The position numbers were made by a program, and so were the translations under genes. Positions 11,689 through 23,355 of a stretch of DNA of 44,267 nucleotides are shown piece after piece (positions within the stretch are counted from its first letter, which is position 1; the number at the start of each line of letters is the position of its first letter). The DNA lies in the IMG/VR virus record IMGVR_UViG_3300027899_000024, positions 1 to 44,267 of that record; one strand, written 5' to 3'. The notes below the pieces were generated by a model. It made no database searches. It saw only the letters and a program-made list of their open reading frames with translations, and was not told the DNA's origin. Origin of the DNA: a virus.

Positions 11689-13972
11689 ATGCCACGTATC
11701 TGGACTTAAGATAACTATTTACTGTGTTATCTTGGTTTCGTACGGGTGTTTTGAATGTTGCATTTTGTGTAGAATTATTTACTTGTGTAGGTGCACTAAT
11801 AACAGTTGATTGTTTCTGTGCTGTCATTGGTTGTTTATTAGCAGCATCAACTTTTGCAGATTCTCCATATACTTTATTACCTGCTGTTGGAGTTACTGCT
11901 TTTACTTTTACAGATTGCTCTTTAACCATATCCTCTTTAACACGTTCCGCAGCAGATGTATAATTTTCAGGAGAACCTGGAAAGTTAGCTTCTTCCTCTG
12001 CTAGATATTTCTTAAAGTTAGGATGAGACTTAATTTGATCAGTAGTTACACCCTTAAGAGTACCGGTAACTGTTTCAGAAGTTATAGTACCAGGCCCAGC
12101 AATCTTAGTCATAGGAGCTTTTGCCCCTTTTGGTGCACCTTTAGTTTTAATTGAATCCTTACCTACTTCAATTGCTGCACCACTAGTACCAATAGTTTGC
12201 ATCGCTTTACCAATACGTTCTAACCCATCAGCAGCCTTTTGTAATCCATCTCCTAGTTTAGCAATTTTTTCTAGTTTATCGATTGGACTATCTTTGCCTA
12301 TTGATAATAAACCTGATACTAAATTACCTAATCCCCCTACTACACTACCGGCTCCAAATGCTGCCATTGCTGCACTAACTGCTAATATTCCTGCCGCAGT
12401 ACTCATTAAATCTGCACCAGATATTGCACCAATTCTTTCCATTCCAGCAGCAAATGTATCCATGGATTCAGCAACATTTTCAAATGCTTTACTAGCCACC
12501 CATAATGCAGCACCTAATGCTAATAATGTTGCTGCACCCGCTAATGCACTTAGGCTTAATGCACCTATTGCCACAACAGCAGCAGTTAAGGCTCCTATTG
12601 CTAGGATACCTTTACCCATAGTTTCCCAATCAATCTCAGCAAAGTTTTTAAATGCCATACTAGTGATTAATAAAGCTCCGCCTAATGCTAATAGTGTTCC
12701 TGCTGCACTAACATCTTTAATTAATTTAGTTGCTAATGCTAATCCACCTAAAACTAACCCACCTTTTAGGATACTTTCCCAAGCAATATTTCCAAAGCTC
12801 TTTAATGCAATACTTGTAATTAATAGTGCAGCACCTAATGCTAATAGTGTTTTAGATGCATCACCATCTTTTATGAATTTGGTTGCAACAACTAATGCAG
12901 TAATTGCACCAATACCCATCATAAAGTCAGAGAATTTAACCGTTGCAAAGTTTTGAAATGCTTTACTTATAATCCATACTGAAGCTGCTAAAGCTAGTAA
13001 TCCTTTTGCTGCTCCACCTAATGCTCCACCAATTCCAGATAAACCTTTGCCAAGACCACTTAGCATACCACCTTTAGGTGGTTCATTCGGTGGTGGCGGT
13101 GGTGCATTTGCTGCTCTAGTATTTTCTTCAATTTTAGTAAGAATATTTGTTTGCTCTTCATTTGCTTGAGCCATTTCAATTTCTGATTCTGACATGTCAT
13201 TTTCGTCAGTTTTTGTTCTAGTAGAAGGATCAGACTTCTGCCATCTTTTAGCCAATTCTTCTTTGGCTTTCATTTCAGGCGATAGACCAATTTGTCTTTC
13301 TGATATATTTAGATCTTTATATTCTTTTAGTTTAGCATCATTTTTATTTGTATCACGTACTAATTGTTGTTGCTCACCACGTTGGCGCTCGAATATTTTT
13401 CTAGCACCTTCTTTACCATGTAAATTTACTGTTGGGTCGCCTGCTGCAATTCTAGCTTTAGCATACTTTTGTCTATCTTCTTCTGCATCATAGTGCTCAG
13501 ACAATATACCACCGCCACCACGTTTGGCAATACCAGTTTTATCAAGAAACCCACGTTTAGTAAAGAAGTCTGCTACACTATCTTTCATTCCAGTAACACG
13601 TTGACCTATAGTTTTAAATTCTCTACGATCCCCAGTTTTACCTAATACTGCATTTGCATCATTTTGTTTCTTAAGAAAGCCATTACTTTTCTTAATTTCT
13701 GCTAACATTTTAATAATATTAGCATTAGCTCCATCGCCAGTTTTATTTAATAAACCCTTTTTTAATTCTTCAGCTGAAAGACTTTCATCTTTCTCAGATC
13801 TTATAGATTCAGCTGCTTGTATTATTTGTAATTTCTCATCTAACTTAGCAAGCTTTTCTTGGGCAAGGATGGACTTTAATTGCGCTTCTACATCCGCATT
13901 CATTTTTAAATTTGACTTTTTTTGACCTTCTAATAGATCACCTATGGTCATTGCATCCTTGTTTTTTGCCAT
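11687..13972 (-). CDS. tape-measure protein (gp29 position)
   Basis: The 761-residue protein is the largest in the - strand block and lies straight after the tail-assembly chaperone genes gp26 and gp51, the usual position of a tape measure. Residues about 1-290 are charged, coiled-coil type (K/E/A rich); about 300-560 hold hydrophobic segments with four related repeats of about 51 residues (each starting LLAL[A/G]); the C-terminal 200 are polar. Tape-measure proteins set tail length and are ejected into the cell envelope. It starts by TAATG overlap with gp51. Homology to T4 gp29 itself is inferred, not seen. Confidence 0.75.
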   Translation of the reverse strand: MAKNKDAMTIGDLLEGQKKSNLKMNADVEAQLKSILAQEKLAKLDEKLQIIQAAESIRSEKDESLSAEELKKGLLNKTGDGANANIIKMLAEIKKSNGFLKKQNDANAVLGKTGDRREFKTIGQRVTGMKDSVADFFTKRGFLDKTGIAKRGGGGILSEHYDAEEDRQKYAKARIAAGDPTVNLHGKEGARKIFERQRGEQQQLVRDTNKNDAKLKEYKDLNISERQIGLSPEMKAKEELAKRWQKSDPSTRTKTDENDMSESEIEMAQANEEQTNILTKIEENTRAANAPPPPPNEPPKGGMLSGLGKGLSGIGGALGGAAKGLLALAASVWIISKAFQNFATVKFSDFMMGIGAITALVVATKFIKDGDASKTLLALGAALLITSIALKSFGNIAWESILKGGLVLGGLALATKLIKDVSAAGTLLALGGALLITSMAFKNFAEIDWETMGKGILAIGALTAAVVAIGALSLSALAGAATLLALGAALWVASKAFENVAESMDTFAAGMERIGAISGADLMSTAAGILAVSAAMAAFGAGSVVGGLGNLVSGLLSIGKDSPIDKLEKIAKLGDGLQKAADGLERIGKAMQTIGTSGAAIEVGKDSIKTKGAPKGAKAPMTKIAGPGTITSETVTGTLKGVTTDQIKSHPNFKKYLAEEEANFPGSPENYTSAAERVKEDMVKEQSVKVKAVTPTAGNKVYGESAKVDAANKQPMTAQKQSTVISAPTQVNNSTQNATFKTPVRNQDNTVNSYLKSRYVA
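12440..13000 (-). repeat. four hydrophobic repeats in the tape-measure gene
   Basis: Segments beginning LLALAASVW, LLALGAALL, LLALGGALL and LLALGAALW are spaced about 153, 153 and 168 bases. Each unit holds a hydrophobic helix followed by K/N-F-[A/G] and a second hydrophobic helix. They probably arose by internal duplication. Confidence 0.8.
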
Positions 13973-14154
13973 TACTGTTTACTCTCTATTCGTTGTTTTT
14001 CTTCTTCTAAATACTGTATCAACATAGCGATATAAATGTCTCTCTCAAATGGTATCATATTTTCTAAATCACTTAAAGAATATTTATGATACTGCATCAA
14101 TGCAAAGTTCATTTTATAAAAATTATATAATGACTCATGCGAGAGACATACTAA
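13972..14154 (-). CDS. gp51: gp51-like tail-assembly chaperone, likely frameshift product
   Basis: In the -1 frame after the end of gp26, 60 codons follow (LVCLSHESLYNFYKMNFALM and onward) with a conserved PFERDIYIAML core. This resembles the gp51 or chaperone C-terminal domain of T4-like phages. The frame has no ATG before 14112 and no ribosome site there; an ATG-started version would have 46 residues and lose the first helix. A run of eight Ts at the end of gp26 (14153-14160 on the + strand) offers a slippery TTTTTTT. Independent translation from 14112 remains possible. Confidence 0.75.
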   Translation of the reverse strand, partial: LVCLSHESLYNFYKMNFALMQYHKYSLSDLENMIPFERDIYIAMLIQYLEEEKQRIESKQ

Positions 14155-14864
14155 AAAAAACTATTTAAACCCTCAAGAACTTTATGGTGTGCAGCATTAC
14201 ATACTGGACAAACATAATCTATTTCGTGTGATAACTTAGGCATTGTCTCAAAGAATTTTTGTACATTTAAAAATTGATCTGATGTTAAGTTATTAAGGAA
14301 TTCCATTAATTCCGGTTTAGTTTGTTCTTTAGCATGAAACACTTCATCTGTTGTATAAATGTAATCAATACATTCAACTACAATATTAAATACTTGTTCG
14401 ATATCAGTACTATCTACGTTTTCTAATTTCTTTACGATATCCATTGTTGGGTATTTCATTGCAATACCAACATCATCATATAATTTAATCTTAATTACAT
14501 GTTCTGGGTTTTTACTAACAGCAAGTTTAGTTAAATCAACTGATACTTTTGCTATTGCCTTTTCATCTGTACATGTATCGCATCGTAATAATAACTCTAT
14601 TACTTCTCCCACAGATTTAGCTCTAATTTGAGTAAAAATATACTCTAAATCAAATGTAGCTAATCCTTCTACATTAATATCATCTTTAATACATGATTTA
14701 ATCACGTCTTTTAATGAGTTAACCATTACAGTTGCATCTTCAGATTGCTGAGCAATCAAAAGAGCTTTTTCTTCTTTAATTAAGAATGGTCTATACTTAA
14801 TCTGTTTTCCAGATGAAGGTACCTCTAAATTATAGGTTGGTGTACTATTAATTGGTAATGCCAT
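14151..14864 (-). CDS. gp26: gp26, baseplate hub / tail chaperone
   Basis: The 237-residue protein has the gp26 layout: N-terminal MALPINSTPTYNLEVPSSGK, then YRPFLIKEEKALL, FDLEYIF (about 71-77) and KSVGEVIEL. Two cysteine pairs, C95/C98 (CDTC) and C219/C222 (CPVC), could bind zinc. T4 gp26 is involved in hub assembly. It lies upstream of the tape-measure gene. It ends in TTT TTT TAG, a slippery end that lets some ribosomes continue into gp51. An AGGAG within the end of gp16 is its ribosome site. Confidence 0.85.
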   Translation of the reverse strand: MALPINSTPTYNLEVPSSGKQIKYRPFLIKEEKALLIAQQSEDATVMVNSLKDVIKSCIKDDINVEGLATFDLEYIFTQIRAKSVGEVIELLLRCDTCTDEKAIAKVSVDLTKLAVSKNPEHVIKIKLYDDVGIAMKYPTMDIVKKLENVDSTDIEQVFNIVVECIDYIYTTDEVFHAKEQTKPELMEFLNNLTSDQFLNVQKFFETMPKLSHEIDYVCPVCNAAHHKVLEGLNSFF

Positions 14865-14865
14865 G

Positions 14866-15306
14866 TTACTCTCCTGTATTCAATTTTTTTATCATTTTAT
14901 TAAGTTCAGCGGTACTGCCAACAAATATACTGTTGTTTGTTACTGTTTTTGTTTCAATGCCCTGGCCTCTTGCTTCCTTAGGTGCATCTAGTTTTTGTTT
15001 TCTTTCGTGTAATCTTAATAGTTGCTCATTAATATCTGCAAGTTGGTTCATTAGATTACCTACAACTTCAAAAGCCCTAGGATGCTCTGAAGATTTTGCA
15101 ATCTCTAAAGCATGTCCTAGAGCGTCCTGTCCTTGTTGAAGTAGTCCATATAGATTAGCTCGAGTACGATCGTAATCATTCTCAATCTTTTCAGTCTGAC
15201 TATTAGCTTCTGGTATTACTACTTCACCAGTACTCATTATTACTTCACCTTGTATTACAGGTTCCATATCGAAAACCTGTGACAAATTATTATCGATTTT
15301 GCTCAT
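14866..15306 (-). CDS. gp16: gp16, small terminase subunit
   Basis: This 146-residue protein has the gp16 signature: a helical pair with RANLYGLLQQGQDAL (about residues 49-63), HPRAFEVVGNLMNQLADIN (about 74-92) and the closing FVGSTAELNKMI motif. The small terminase forms rings that recognise concatemer DNA and stimulate the large subunit gp17. Its start overlaps the previous stop by one base. Unusually, no gp17 follows: it sits inside the tail block. Confidence 0.88.
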   Translation of the reverse strand: MSKIDNNLSQVFDMEPVIQGEVIMSTGEVVIPEANSQTEKIENDYDRTRANLYGLLQQGQDALGHALEIAKSSEHPRAFEVVGNLMNQLADINEQLLRLHERKQKLDAPKEARGQGIETKTVTNNSIFVGSTAELNKMIKKLNTGE

Positions 15307-15836
15307 TAGAAATTAGGTTTTTTCCTTGTAGGTTTACCTTCAATTGTATTTATTACTTCAGACGGTGTATCAGCAGGCAAATCGTCTACACTTGGAGGAG
15401 TAGGTGCTGCTGGTTCATACTCATATTGAGTTGGTTCTGATCTTGGTCTAAGCGGCATTGGTTGCATTGGTGGCAACGGAGCCGCATCAGTCTTTTTTGA
15501 TGATGAATATGCATTAGCACCAAAGAAGGCTGCAACTAAAGCTGAAATAGCAACAAAGTAAGTAGGAGCAATATTACCAATAATTGTTGCTGCATCATCT
15601 ACATCTAAGAATGAAGCAATAACAATAGTTGCTGGATATAACAACATACCCCATAAAGCAAACCATGTCATCTTGCGCATAGCATCTCGTTGAGCATCTG
15701 CATCTTCAAGTTCTCTGCGTTTGAATTCCAAATACATTTTTAGCTCTTCACTACTTACATAACCATCGCCATTTGTATCTGCTTCTTGTAGATGTTGATA
15801 AGCACTATCACTTACACCTTTTTTATTTTGTTGCAT
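15306..15836 (-). CDS. membrane protein with an EF-hand
   Basis: The start at 15836 follows AAGGGAATAAA; an open frame further upstream runs through the tube gene and is not used. The 176-residue product has a canonical calcium-binding loop DTNGDGYVSSEE at residues 20-31, a charged helix, two transmembrane segments (about 57-76 and 84-108), then a proline-rich, acidic cytoplasmic or periplasmic tail. The two-helix plan is like some phage holins or internal virion proteins, but no family is proved. It lies between the tube-like gene and gp16. Confidence 0.75.
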   Translation of the reverse strand: MQQNKKGVSDSAYQHLQEADTNGDGYVSSEELKMYLEFKRRELEDADAQRDAMRKMTWFALWGMLLYPATIVIASFLDVDDAATIIGNIAPTYFVAISALVAAFFGANAYSSSKKTDAAPLPPMQPMPLRPRSEPTQYEYEPAAPTPPSVDDLPADTPSEVINTIEGKPTRKKPNF

Positions 15837-15855
15837 TTTATTCCCTTTGTTATTA

Positions 15856-16533
15856 TTAGAATTTAGGATATAATCTAGAATTGTCAACGCCAAAGTTGGG
15901 GAAGTTTTGTTGGTCGTCATAAGCACCATACCCAGGTTGAGCACCAGGTGAACCCAATACTTCTTTACCATTCACTATTAAACCATTATCTCCCGCTATA
16001 GCGGATCCAGATGTCCAATATCTATAATTAATTGATACTTGGATCTTCATTATATCTTTTGCACTATAATCCATTTGAATGGAACTTATAGATTTAGGAT
16101 AACATTCAAATAGTTTAACTCTATATTGTTCTTCGTCATTCTGATCTAATACAAACACCTCAATGTCAGTAATATATTCTTTATAATAATTAAATTGACG
16201 AGTAGTAGGATCCTGAATAGAATTAATCCATTTATCAAATAGCGATTTAGAATCCATAGTTCTATCAACATAGAAAGTCATATTGATGTTATCAAATGTT
16301 CTTTCATATGGCATCTCTCTTAATTCACCATATGTTCTTGCTGGTTGTGTAGAGATACTCATACCTGGTAGAGTTACACTATCACAATGCATTAATACTT
16401 TCTCTAGATCTCCAGTGAAGGCATCCTTTGTCTCTCGAAGAGTGTTAGGCAAGGAAAACATAACCCTAAATCGGTTTGTATGTATCATCCCCTGAGTTTT
16501 TACTGAGGCGATAAATTCGTTTAAAGTACTCAT
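15856..16533 (-). CDS. tail-tube family protein (gp54/gp19-like)
   Basis: The 225-residue protein belongs to the T4 gp19/gp54 tube fold family: NRFRVMFSLP (about 21-30), a SVTLPGMSIST turn, MTFYVDRTMDSKSLFDKW and the closing ISINYRYW-type strand. gp19 forms the tail tube; gp54 starts it on the baseplate. Its length, the divergent neighbour gp48 (tube cap) and the tail block suggest the gp54-like role, but gp19 cannot be excluded. It overlaps the previous gene by ATGA. Confidence 0.75.
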   Translation of the reverse strand: MSTLNEFIASVKTQGMIHTNRFRVMFSLPNTLRETKDAFTGDLEKVLMHCDSVTLPGMSISTQPARTYGELREMPYERTFDNINMTFYVDRTMDSKSLFDKWINSIQDPTTRQFNYYKEYITDIEVFVLDQNDEEQYRVKLFECYPKSISSIQMDYSAKDIMKIQVSINYRYWTSGSAIAGDNGLIVNGKEVLGSPGAQPGYGAYDDQQNFPNFGVDNSRLYPKF

Positions 16534-19355: not shown

Positions 19356-20638
19356 GTGATAGCGATAAGATAAGATTTGCTGGTGATATAAGCATTGAGA
19401 ATGTAAGCATTGTTACGTCCAAAGGAATGACACAAAATATAACTAATCAATTGTTATCAATTGAATTGTTTGAAGATCTATTCTCTCCATTTATGACTGG
19501 ATTGATTACAGTTAAGGATTCATTTGACTTTGTAAACTTGATGCCATTCATTGGTGAAGAGTTTATCAATATGAAGATCTATACTCCTTCATTAGAAGAA
19601 AAAGATTACATTAATCAACAGTTTTATATCTATAAAATCTCAGACAGATTAATAACAGGTGACAGAACTGTAGTTTATCAATTGCATATTATTGCCCGGG
19701 AAGCGGTAATTGATGTAAACAAGAATGTAAGTAAAAACTATTCAGGAATAATTTCAGATATTGTAAAAGAGATTTGTACAAATAAAGAAGATGGACTTGA
19801 AAGTACAAAACCTATTAATGTAGAACCTACGGCCAACAAAACTAAATTTATATCTAACTTTTGGTCACCAATTAAAAGTATTAATTATGCAGTGGGTAAT
19901 GCTACAACTTCTGCAGGTGCTAGCAACTATCTATTCTTTGAAAATAGAAATGGATTGAATTTTGTATCATTAGATTCTTTATATAATCAAGAACCTAAAA
20001 TGGAATTTGTTTATGATAATTATGCTAGAGATGTTTTATCTGATGGCAGATCTATAATTAATTTAAATGAAGACTACAAAAGAATTACTGAATTAGAAAT
20101 ACCATTGGTGTATGATTACATTGATAGAATCCGCTCAGGGATGTTTGCATCTAAGATTATTACTCATGATCCAGTAACAAAGAAATATTATTCTAAAAAC
20201 TTCAATATGCTTGATGACTTTTTAAATAATTCTCATTTGAATGAGTTTTCCGCAGCAACAACTAGCAATATTAATTCACCCAATTCTTTGATTATTAATT
20301 ACCCCAAAAATTATGGAGTATTTAATCAATACACCGACGTGTCTAATGCTAAGACTATTCAAAAGCGCATCTCACAATTGATGCAAGCCCAAACTACCAA
20401 ACTAAATATTACGGTTTTAGGTAGAACTGATTATACAGTTGGAATGAAAGTAAAAGTTAAACTAAATAAAATACAACCTATTGGCAAAGGGGAATTAGAA
20501 GAAGATATTTTGGATACTGTGTTATCTGGTTTCTATATTATATCTGCTATAAATCATTCTATCAATAGAGATAAACATGAGTGTGCGATGGAATTAATTA
20601 AAGATTCATATATTATGAATTTGAATGAGGGTCAATAA
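19352..20638 (+). CDS. gp27: gp27-like baseplate hub protein
   Basis: This 428-residue protein follows gp53 and precedes gp5. The strand-rich N-terminal third (IENVSIVTSKGM, LFEDLFSPFMTGLITVKDS) and the C-terminal section (TKLNITVLGRTDYTVGMKVKV, then HSINRDKHECAMELIKDSY) match the gp27 / tail-hub gpD-type fold. gp27 trimers form the collar holding the gp5 spike. The adjacency to gp5, coupled by TAATG, supports it. T4 gp27 is 391 residues. Confidence 0.8.
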   Translation: MSDSDKIRFAGDISIENVSIVTSKGMTQNITNQLLSIELFEDLFSPFMTGLITVKDSFDFVNLMPFIGEEFINMKIYTPSLEEKDYINQQFYIYKISDRLITGDRTVVYQLHIIAREAVIDVNKNVSKNYSGIISDIVKEICTNKEDGLESTKPINVEPTANKTKFISNFWSPIKSINYAVGNATTSAGASNYLFFENRNGLNFVSLDSLYNQEPKMEFVYDNYARDVLSDGRSIINLNEDYKRITELEIPLVYDYIDRIRSGMFASKIITHDPVTKKYYSKNFNMLDDFLNNSHLNEFSAATTSNINSPNSLIINYPKNYGVFNQYTDVSNAKTIQKRISQLMQAQTTKLNITVLGRTDYTVGMKVKVKLNKIQPIGKGELEEDILDTVLSGFYIISAINHSINRDKHECAMELIKDSYIMNLNEGQ

Positions 20639-23355
20639 TGCAATTATATCAAGCGGTTTGTGAAAATAGACAGGACCCGTTAAAACTGGGTAGATGCCAA
20701 GTTCGTGTAATGGGTTTACATACTCATGATAAGTCAAAATTAAAAACTGAAGATTTGCCTTGGGCTTATCCAATGCAACCTATTACTTCTGCCGCTATAT
20801 CTGGAATTGGCCATGCACCAGTTGGTATTGTTGAAGGCACCTGGGTTATTGTCATGTTTAGAGACGATGACGAGCAATACCCAGTTATTCTTGGTACTGT
20901 TGGTGGTATACCTCAAAAATTTGGTGCAGTTGATGAGGATCCAAGTGGTATCTTATTAAAAGATTCATCTGGAAATTTAACTACTACTGAACCAACTGAT
21001 GTTGTTACCTCTGATACCGGTGAGCAAGTTCAAACTACTACACCAATTAGCACGACTCCTTCTGCAGTAACAACCACTGATATTCCTACTACCCCACCAC
21101 CTGGTACCTTAAATGCCGCTTTAGCTTCTGTTGGAATTAAAGCTCTTCTTGCTGCATGTGACAAATATGGTTTAACTACAAGAGAACAAAAATGTTCAGT
21201 TCTTGCAATTGCCGGGGGCGAGTCAGGTTGGATCCCACAGAAAGAAGGATATAGTTATTCAGCGGAAGCATTGCAATCTACTTTTGCTTCTACCTTTAAA
21301 GGTAAACCAGATTTAGCAGCACAGTATGCAAGATGGAAAGGATCTAGAGAAGAATTCTTTAACTTTGTATATGCGCCAGAAAATAATGGTAAGCAATTAG
21401 GTAATACACAAACTGGCGATGGCGGCAAGTATTATGGTAGAGGATTTATTCAGATTACTGGTAGAAGTAATTATACCACTTATGGTTCAAAAGCTGGAAT
21501 AGATCTATTAAGCAATCCTGAGGCGTTAAACACAGATCTTAGTGCTTCTGCTGCTGTTGCATGCGTATATATTTTAGACAGATTAAGACCAAAGAATACC
21601 TCTCCTACAGCTAACCCTGATTATTTCTATGCTGTTAAAAAAGGAATTGGAAATGATACTGGTAATGGTGCACAAAAGCGTTTAGCATATTACGAATACT
21701 TTTATGGTAGCAAAGTTCCATCTTCACTCACTGAAGAAAAATCGGCGTCACCTACTACAAGTACTCCATCAGAAGCACAAACATATAATTCAGGTGCACC
21801 TTCTTCTAGTAGTGCAGGACCTGTAGGATTTAGAGATCCAAATAACAAGTATCCATTACAGAATTTTATAAATGAACCAGACACTAACAGATTAGCCCGA
21901 GGAATCAGTAAAGGCACAGTAGTTCCCATTAAGGAATCAAATAGAGTCTCAGGTATTCCAAAGGCTTTAGATCAAGGTACATTTGATGAACCATCATCAT
22001 CATTCTCTGCTAAGTACCCATTCAATCATGTGTATGAAACAGAGTCAGGCCATGTACAAGAATTCGATGATACTCCAGGTCATGAAAGAATTCATACTTA
22101 CCATCGAAAAGGTACATTTACTGAAGTAGATCCAAATGGCACAGAAGTGCATCATATTGTAGGTGATTCTTATACTATTATTGATAGAAACGGTTGTATT
22201 TTCATTACCGGCGAGGCAAATCTAACAGTTAATGGTAACATTAATATATTATGCCAATCATCAGCAAACCTTGAAGTTACTGGTGATTTAACTGCTAAAG
22301 TTGGTGGAGATTACACTCTTGGTGTTGCCGGGAATTATACTGTAGCAGTTGGTGGCACGTACCAAGTTCAATCTGTAGGAAATATGACTCATCAAACTAA
22401 TGCATCAAAACATGATGTATCTATTGGTACAATGAATCAATATTCTTATGGTTCAATGAATATCAAGTCCAGTGGGAATTTAAACATGGATGCATCAGTT
22501 ATTCATGAAAATAGTGGTACATCAATTGCAGCCACTTCCATTAATCTTACTCCTCCCGCTAAAGGTGTACCATTAAATCAAGTATTAGAATTCTTAGTAG
22601 CACCAGTTGCGGCAGGCGAAGAAGTATTTACGTTTGAATCTGATGAGGAATGGAATACACCTGCAGGAATTGCAGCAAAAGCAGAATTAGATAAAAAATA
22701 TGGGGAGCAAACCTCAGCAAATAACCCAGCGCAAGACGAGGCTGCTCCTGTTGGCGGTACTAATGTTGCTACTGTTGCTAGTTGTAGTATTATTTCGGCA
22801 ACACAAACATTCACCAATGACTTTAGATTATCACCTAACTTTACACTTGGCATGTTGATTGATGGTGGAGTTAATGGTCATAATAAACTTAAAGATCAGA
22901 ATGGTTTAACTAAACAACAGATCGTATGTAATCTATCTCAACTATGCATTAATATGCTAGAACCTTCACTTGTATTATTACCAGGCGGTGCTGCTGGATA
23001 TGGTAAACAATGGAAGATTAATTCTGGATATAGAAGTTCAAGCAATTCTACTTCTACATCAGATCACCCATACGGTAGAGCAGTTGATATTACAATATTG
23101 CCATATGATTCATCTAAGAAACAACGTAACTTTGATATGATTCAGAAACTAGAACAAGTTCTACCTTATGACCAAATGATTATAGAATACAGATCTGATG
23201 GTTCTAATTGGATTCATATGAGTTTTAGAGGAATCAATAAGGGAGATACTACTGGTCCTGGCGCAACCAATAGAAAAATGGCTTTCACTATGTTGAATGA
23301 TAAAACATATAAGAGAGATTCTTCTGGAAATCCATCCGGTTTTGTATTAATATAA
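20638..23355 (+). CDS. gp5: gp5, tail spike with GH19 and M15 lytic domains
   Basis: This 905-residue protein has four regions. Residues about 1-95 are the gp5 OB-fold. About 165-355 form a GH19 lysozyme domain with GGESGW (catalytic E195) and GRGFIQITG. About 455-640 form the triple beta-helix with repeated octad-like strands (for example DYTLGVAGNYTVAVGG). About 745-895 form an M15 peptidase domain with SDHPYGRAVD (H810, D817) and WIHMS (H860). T4 gp5 has one T4-type lysozyme domain (a different family) and is 575 residues. It would puncture and digest the envelope during entry. Confidence 0.92.
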   Translation: MQLYQAVCENRQDPLKLGRCQVRVMGLHTHDKSKLKTEDLPWAYPMQPITSAAISGIGHAPVGIVEGTWVIVMFRDDDEQYPVILGTVGGIPQKFGAVDEDPSGILLKDSSGNLTTTEPTDVVTSDTGEQVQTTTPISTTPSAVTTTDIPTTPPPGTLNAALASVGIKALLAACDKYGLTTREQKCSVLAIAGGESGWIPQKEGYSYSAEALQSTFASTFKGKPDLAAQYARWKGSREEFFNFVYAPENNGKQLGNTQTGDGGKYYGRGFIQITGRSNYTTYGSKAGIDLLSNPEALNTDLSASAAVACVYILDRLRPKNTSPTANPDYFYAVKKGIGNDTGNGAQKRLAYYEYFYGSKVPSSLTEEKSASPTTSTPSEAQTYNSGAPSSSSAGPVGFRDPNNKYPLQNFINEPDTNRLARGISKGTVVPIKESNRVSGIPKALDQGTFDEPSSSFSAKYPFNHVYETESGHVQEFDDTPGHERIHTYHRKGTFTEVDPNGTEVHHIVGDSYTIIDRNGCIFITGEANLTVNGNINILCQSSANLEVTGDLTAKVGGDYTLGVAGNYTVAVGGTYQVQSVGNMTHQTNASKHDVSIGTMNQYSYGSMNIKSSGNLNMDASVIHENSGTSIAATSINLTPPAKGVPLNQVLEFLVAPVAAGEEVFTFESDEEWNTPAGIAAKAELDKKYGEQTSANNPAQDEAAPVGGTNVATVASCSIISATQTFTNDFRLSPNFTLGMLIDGGVNGHNKLKDQNGLTKQQIVCNLSQLCINMLEPSLVLLPGGAAGYGKQWKINSGYRSSSNSTSTSDHPYGRAVDITILPYDSSKKQRNFDMIQKLEQVLPYDQMIIEYRSDGSNWIHMSFRGINKGDTTGPGATNRKMAFTMLNDKTYKRDSSGNPSGFVLI

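Follow-up and report, generated by a model that had tools for sequence, protein, structure and literature searches.

The end of gene 26 in the window, by which we mean the whole 44,267-nucleotide viral record IMGVR_UViG_3300027899_000024 of a marine-type T4-like phage, very probably carries a programmed -1 ribosomal frameshift from which two tail assembly chaperones would be made, gp26 and a longer gp26-gp51 fusion. This reading had been proposed in a preliminary description made from the sequence alone, and it gains support from a slip site present in 53 of 56 clusters of relatives, from NNT TTT codons at the site in 52 of 52 scored clusters, and from a -1 frame that evolves as protein. Most ribosomes on gene 26 would stop at its TAG and release gp26, the short chaperone. 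In a minority, the SD-like GAGGG 9 nt before the heptamer and the arrival of the stop codon in the A site would cause a pause, and these ribosomes would slip one base back on T TTT TTT and read 60 more codons, giving a fusion (...NSFF-LVCLSHESL...) whose junction peptide spans NSFFLVCLSHESLYNFYK. The resulting long chaperone, gp26-gp51, would correspond to that of lambda G/GT: the short form would coat the tape-measure protein encoded next door, while the few long forms would recruit tail-tube subunits through the gp51 domain. The sequence itself shows the site and how well it is kept, a -1 frame that codes for protein, an SD-like signal, the order of the genes and a separate long-form gene in T4; slipping, its rate and the chaperone role are inferred.

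The gene 26 junction

On the minus strand, gene 26 ends GAG GGT TTA AAT AGT TTT TTT TAG. The eight Ts that the preliminary description had noticed here, in AGT TTT TTT TAG, occupy 14160-14153 and include a heptamer of the X XXY YYZ type, T TTT TTT, correctly phased ahead of the zero-frame stop (Table 1). The -1 frame is then open for exactly 60 codons (14154-13975), up to a TAA at 13974-13972. Its gp51-like character, also described earlier, is borne out by profile comparison: when the two Phe codons are included, its translation hits the gp51 family PHROG 634 ("baseplate hub assembly catalyst") with E=2e-26. The zero-frame product gp26 is a curated profile match to PF12322, "T4_baseplate" (E=2.7e-62; 210.7 bits, cut-off 24.5), and also matches PHROG 150, "baseplate hub" (E=1.2e-67). 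The end of the 282-position PHROG 150 profile (positions 231-276) matches the gp51 domain, which suggests that this family contains fused gp26-gp51 members. The gp51 stop and the tape measure ATG share bases (TAATG), and the gp26/gp51 pair lies directly upstream of the tape measure gene, as expected of G/GT-type chaperones.

Table 1. Features of the gene 26 junction and its surroundings (positions in the window).
Feature	Position	Strand	Details
Gene 26, zero frame: gp26, putative short tail assembly chaperone	14864-14151	-	237 aa; PF12322, PHROG 150
SD-like GAGGG, probable stimulator	14174-14170	-	9 nt upstream of heptamer
Slippery heptamer T TTT TTT	14160-14154	-	inside 8-T run 14160-14153
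Zero-frame stop TAG	14153-14151	-	directly after heptamer
gp51 domain, -1 frame: C-terminal part of predicted long chaperone	14154-13972	-	60 codons + TAA; PHROG 634
Internal ATG, sole standard start in -1 frame, judged a non-start	14112-14110	-	no SD
Tape measure gene	13972-11687	-	761 aa; PHROG 4372, E=2.4e-14

The site is unique within the window. A search of both strands found a run of at least eight Ts at the gp26 end only, and among the 34 window genes checked this is also the only place with an in-frame T TTT TTN: the 20 other Phe-Phe pairs of those genes form none.

Conservation of the slip site

Relatives were collected from IMG/VR with gp26 alone (80) and with the gp51 domain (72), with no selection for a T run. 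Together with the window and twelve phage records they make up 165 loci, which fall into 56 clusters sharing <70% gp26 amino acid identity. The comparison of T runs that the preliminary description had called for turned out in favor of a maintained site: an in-frame T TTT TTN near the gene 26 end, with a gp51-like -1 ORF after it, is kept in 53 of the 56 clusters (52 scored automatically and one, L097, by inspection). The zero-frame stop lies 0-3 codons past the heptamer in all relatives with the slip site. All 52 automatically scored clusters have NNT TTT codons at the site, a constancy that, under each gene's own codon use, corresponds to log10 P = -25.6 if clusters are independent, and this value is overstated because the clusters share ancestry. 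The second position of the Phe pair is TTT in 31 of these clusters, TTC in 16, TTA in four and TTG in one; a varying last heptamer base is what a ribosomal slip site allows.

Isolates with the slip site span Kyanoviridae, Straboviridae (Emmerichvirinae and Schizotequatrovirus), Pootjesviridae and Menderavirus. When ten further isolate genomes were read directly, T TTT TTN was present in seven (Aeromonas AS-zj, Melnitz-2, S-CRM01, a Schizotequatrovirus, S-MbCM6, S-SKS1 and S-RIM8) and not in the other three (two Ackermannviridae and Pseudomonas Cygsa01).

The composition of the site bears on two other explanations of the frame break. RNA polymerase could slip on the T8 run, so that a mixed mRNA would yield the fusion; at least seven Ts are indeed present in the window and in about 60% of clusters. 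About 40% of clusters, however, have T TTT TTC/A/G, with six Ts, in which the ribosomal heptamer is kept and the run is short for transcriptional slippage, a process that needs about 9 or more Ts in E. coli. Heptamer phase and an SD-like element are furthermore requirements of the ribosome, and we consider polymerase slippage very improbable. Alternatively, the T run could be a sequencing error in a gene that is truly one continuous fusion, like T4 gene 51. Assemblies often contain homopolymer errors, and a fused form does exist in T4, yet independent contigs and isolate genomes show the frame break again at about 100 unique junctions, many of which read TTTTTTC with a stop 0-3 codons on. These independent relatives refute a sequencing error, whose probability we regard as negligible.

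The three clusters that do not share the frameshift site are T4 and a Klebsiella phage, with a separate gp51 gene, and Vibrio D494, with TAATG instead. T TTT TTN is missing from Vibrio D494, Erwinia Bue1, Pseudomonas Cygsa01 and Vibrio GR28A (L092, L170, L171 and L172, respectively), which have just TTTC or TTTTC ahead of the gp26 stop, with TAATG in three of the four. This suggests that a coupled restart or a single-codon slip may replace the tandem slip in these phages. In some distant relatives the gp26 stop shares bases with an ATG (TAATG/TGATG), and a coupled restart is possible there.

L097 was considered as a further exception and rejected, as its junction is intact. In this locus the gp26 frame breaks upstream of the junction, probably through an assembly or sequencing error, and the gp51 domain is identical to that of HTVC008M.

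The -1 frame as protein

In 38 distinct relatives, the part of the -1 frame from the gp26 stop to the first ATG varies by 0.26, 0.20 and 0.49 at codon positions 1, 2 and 3, respectively, and several residues encoded upstream of the ATG are 97-100% conserved. That ATG, at 14112 and 14 codons in, is the sole ATG/GTG/TTG of the -1 frame, with no standard start codon upstream of it. It is not preceded by an SD: its duplex energy is +1.8, whereas the window's gene starts have a mean of -3.7, and across relatives the SD energy at this position averages +0.2 kcal/mol. The corresponding residue, Met15, is kept in 32 of the 38 relatives and missing in six. The -1 frame therefore combines protein-level selection with no initiation signal of its own. 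The preliminary description had stated that gp51 has no ATG and no ribosome site, which is correct for its beginning but not for the frame as a whole, since the ATG at 14112 is present. It had also named a normal gp51 ATG with a ribosome site in relatives as the observation that would speak against a frameshift; a start codon or ribosome site at the gp51 start was found in none of the window's close relatives.

These data weigh on the possibility that gp51 is a separate small protein, started at the internal ATG or by restart after gp26 termination, with no frameshift involved. In public records gp51 usually appears as a distinct gene whose ATG is internal or overlapping, and Vibrio, Rhizobium and Stenotrophomonas phages do have TAATG or TGATG at the junction. 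In the window's group, by contrast, the junction has no ATG, the internal one lacks an SD and is dispensed with by some relatives, and the residues upstream of it, up to 100% conserved, show codon-like variation. The internal ATG also sits inside a predicted helix: the model of the gp51 domain (pLDDT 88) consists of four helices, and the ATG falls within helix 11-24. A separate start would, in addition, leave the fixed T TTT TTN codons unexplained. A gp51 start at the internal ATG was rejected on the start-codon and conservation evidence; with no usable start, no SD and conserved upstream residues, gp51 cannot plausibly start alone here, and we judge a separate gp51 to be improbable.

Signals around the slip site

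Upstream of the frameshift site, predicted pairing with the anti-SD averages -6.8 kcal/mol, compared with -5.3 kcal/mol in synonymous shuffles, and it goes beyond the shuffles in 39 of 52 clusters (combined z -7.7). The usual spacing between the SD-like element and the heptamer is 7-9 nt among relatives. GAG makes up 30 of the 47 Glu codons adjoining the site, versus 291 of 1096 elsewhere in the same gp26 genes (Fisher p=3e-7). These comparisons indicate that the SD-like GAGGG is selected beyond the amino acids that it encodes, and it is a probable stimulator of slipping.

Downstream of the site, neither RNAalifold nor a column-pair scan found a conserved hairpin or pseudoknot in 38 relatives. 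Single-sequence folding of the 60-90 nt downstream gave z values averaging -1.4 to -1.8 in 51 relatives, while the window's own 90 nt fold unremarkably (z +0.4). A conserved downstream stimulatory structure was rejected, as no helix is common to the 38 relatives. With an SD-like signal present and no common downstream structure, the anatomy of the site is that of an upstream SD, a U-run and an immediate stop: a compact SD-plus-U-run shift signal.

A near-perfect long stem of about a dozen base pairs, AATCTCAGTCA...TGACTGAGATT, was seen in one subclade only (L072 and L077-L080). It pairs bases about 3-15 and 78-90 nt past the gp26 stop and may be a clade-specific stimulator.

Probable chaperone role of gp26 and gp51

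In T4, the product of gene 51 is a long form, built of the short form and one more C-terminal domain. T4 gp51 has 249 aa and is encoded on the opposite strand in T4; its residues 1-201 match the gp26 family (PF12322, E=7.7e-55), while its C-terminus is the gp51 domain (PHROG 634, E=8.2e-24; hhalign with the gp51-domain profile, E=3.6e-6). Since T4 gp51 carries both domains, its architecture equals that of the fusion predicted for the window. The claim of a gp26-like domain in T4 gp51 draws on family-level profile matches; pairwise hhalign of the gp26 profile with T4 gp51 aligned only a short stretch around a Cys motif, in a register that does not look homologous.

The AlphaFold model of gp26 (pLDDT 88.8) was compared with 350,542 PDB chains using Foldseek. 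The matches with the highest probability among those listed were both chains of the HK97 tail assembly chaperone 2OB9 (0.82 and 0.72); the better of the two has a TM of 0.53 to the target and, despite its probability of 0.82, a weak Foldseek E of 0.87. A fold search with the 62-aa gp51 domain returned no match, nor did a PDB sequence search with the gp26 profile. Given the adjoining tape measure gene, the possible likeness of the gp26 model to 2OB9 and the fused T4 gp51, the best reading of the pair is a G/GT-type tail chaperone, with gp26 as the putative short form and gp26-gp51 as the rarer long form. The analogy to G/GT drawn in the preliminary description is strengthened by the same three observations.

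Comparison with known systems

Short and long chaperone forms are a tail-building device of most long-tailed phages. The lambda G/GT frameshift was reportedly worked out by Levin in 1993 and by Xu, Hendrix and Duda in 2004. As in the window, it gives a short chaperone and a rarer -1 long form, with the tape measure gene directly downstream (PMC5009743). Unlike lambda G/GT, the window has T TTT TTT preceded by an SD-like element and followed at once by the stop, and its putative chaperone has no Pfam family match to lambda-type chaperones.

Atkins et al. (2016; PMC5009743) call G-T frameshifting widely conserved, "except T4". Short and long forms of T4-like tail chaperones were treated by Vladimirov, Gautam and Davidson (Virology 2022, 566:9-15), whose study, as represented in PMC10274946 and PMC12846349, reported poly-T shift sites in these chaperones; its title stresses non-frameshifting phages. 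According to a paper that cites it, some phages carry a short gene and a fused long gene. That arrangement matches T4 in our comparison, whereas the window has a slip site. As far as these citing papers convey, T4-like chaperones and poly-T sites are already in the literature, and the principle of the window's frameshift is established. In the literature searched, which covered Vladimirov et al. 2022 through its citations, we found no description of the SD-like stimulator, of the breadth of the slip site outside T4's own genus, or of gp51 being annotated as a free-standing gene or not at all.

The tail assembly chaperone frameshift of Vandenendeviridae and Andersonviridae uses a GTTTTT motif (PMC12846349). 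As in the window, a poly-T -1 site ends the short chaperone gene and the tape measure gene comes next, and the tail of the long form was annotated as a hypothetical gene, similar to the case described here. These are different phage families, however, and the likeness is one of gene layout and motif.

The upstream signal of the window has a counterpart in a bacterial gene. In E. coli dnaX, slipping by -1 on A AAA AAG is stimulated by an internal SD, placed about 10 nt before the slip heptamer, together with a strong downstream hairpin. The spacing between SD and heptamer is close in the two cases (about 10 versus 9 nt), but the window has T TTT TTT and no conserved hairpin.

Proposed modes of long-form expression, and annotation

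A broader pattern is somewhat favored by these comparisons. In marine T4-like phages and several other lineages, a frameshift with a dnaX-like SD would be the usual way to express the T4-type tail chaperone; T4 would be the exception, with its long form as a separate gene, and an Ackermannviridae-type arrangement would represent a third mode, either restart at a TAATG or a weaker slip on a single codon. The three routes, frameshift, a long gene of its own and perhaps restart, offer a natural comparison of ways to set the short-to-long ratio.

"gp51, baseplate hub assembly catalyst" is, in these phages, most likely the rarer C-terminal part of a two-form chaperone and not a separate protein. 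About 600 records contain the gp51 domain. In the public phage records sampled, the two sides of the junction are listed as separate genes or gp51 carries no annotation; S-WAM1, S-MbCM6 and AS-zj are examples of gp51 being free-standing or unannotated.

Other genes of the window

An A AAA AAA heptamer lies in frame in the small terminase subunit gene (14866-15306, minus strand), seven codons from the end of that gene and just upstream of gene 26. The 221-aa ORF at 15306-15971 (minus strand), flanked by the small terminase and tail tube genes, has apparent membrane segments and, with a score slightly under the cut-off, a weak EF-hand-like match (PF13202, E=2.3e-5). As listed, this ORF shares 116 nt with the tail tube gene at its start, and translation probably begins further in. 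The 905-aa baseplate hub/tail lysozyme (20638-23355, plus strand) has both endolysin and chitinase-like family matches at residues about 160-385 and seems to carry more than one wall-cutting domain.
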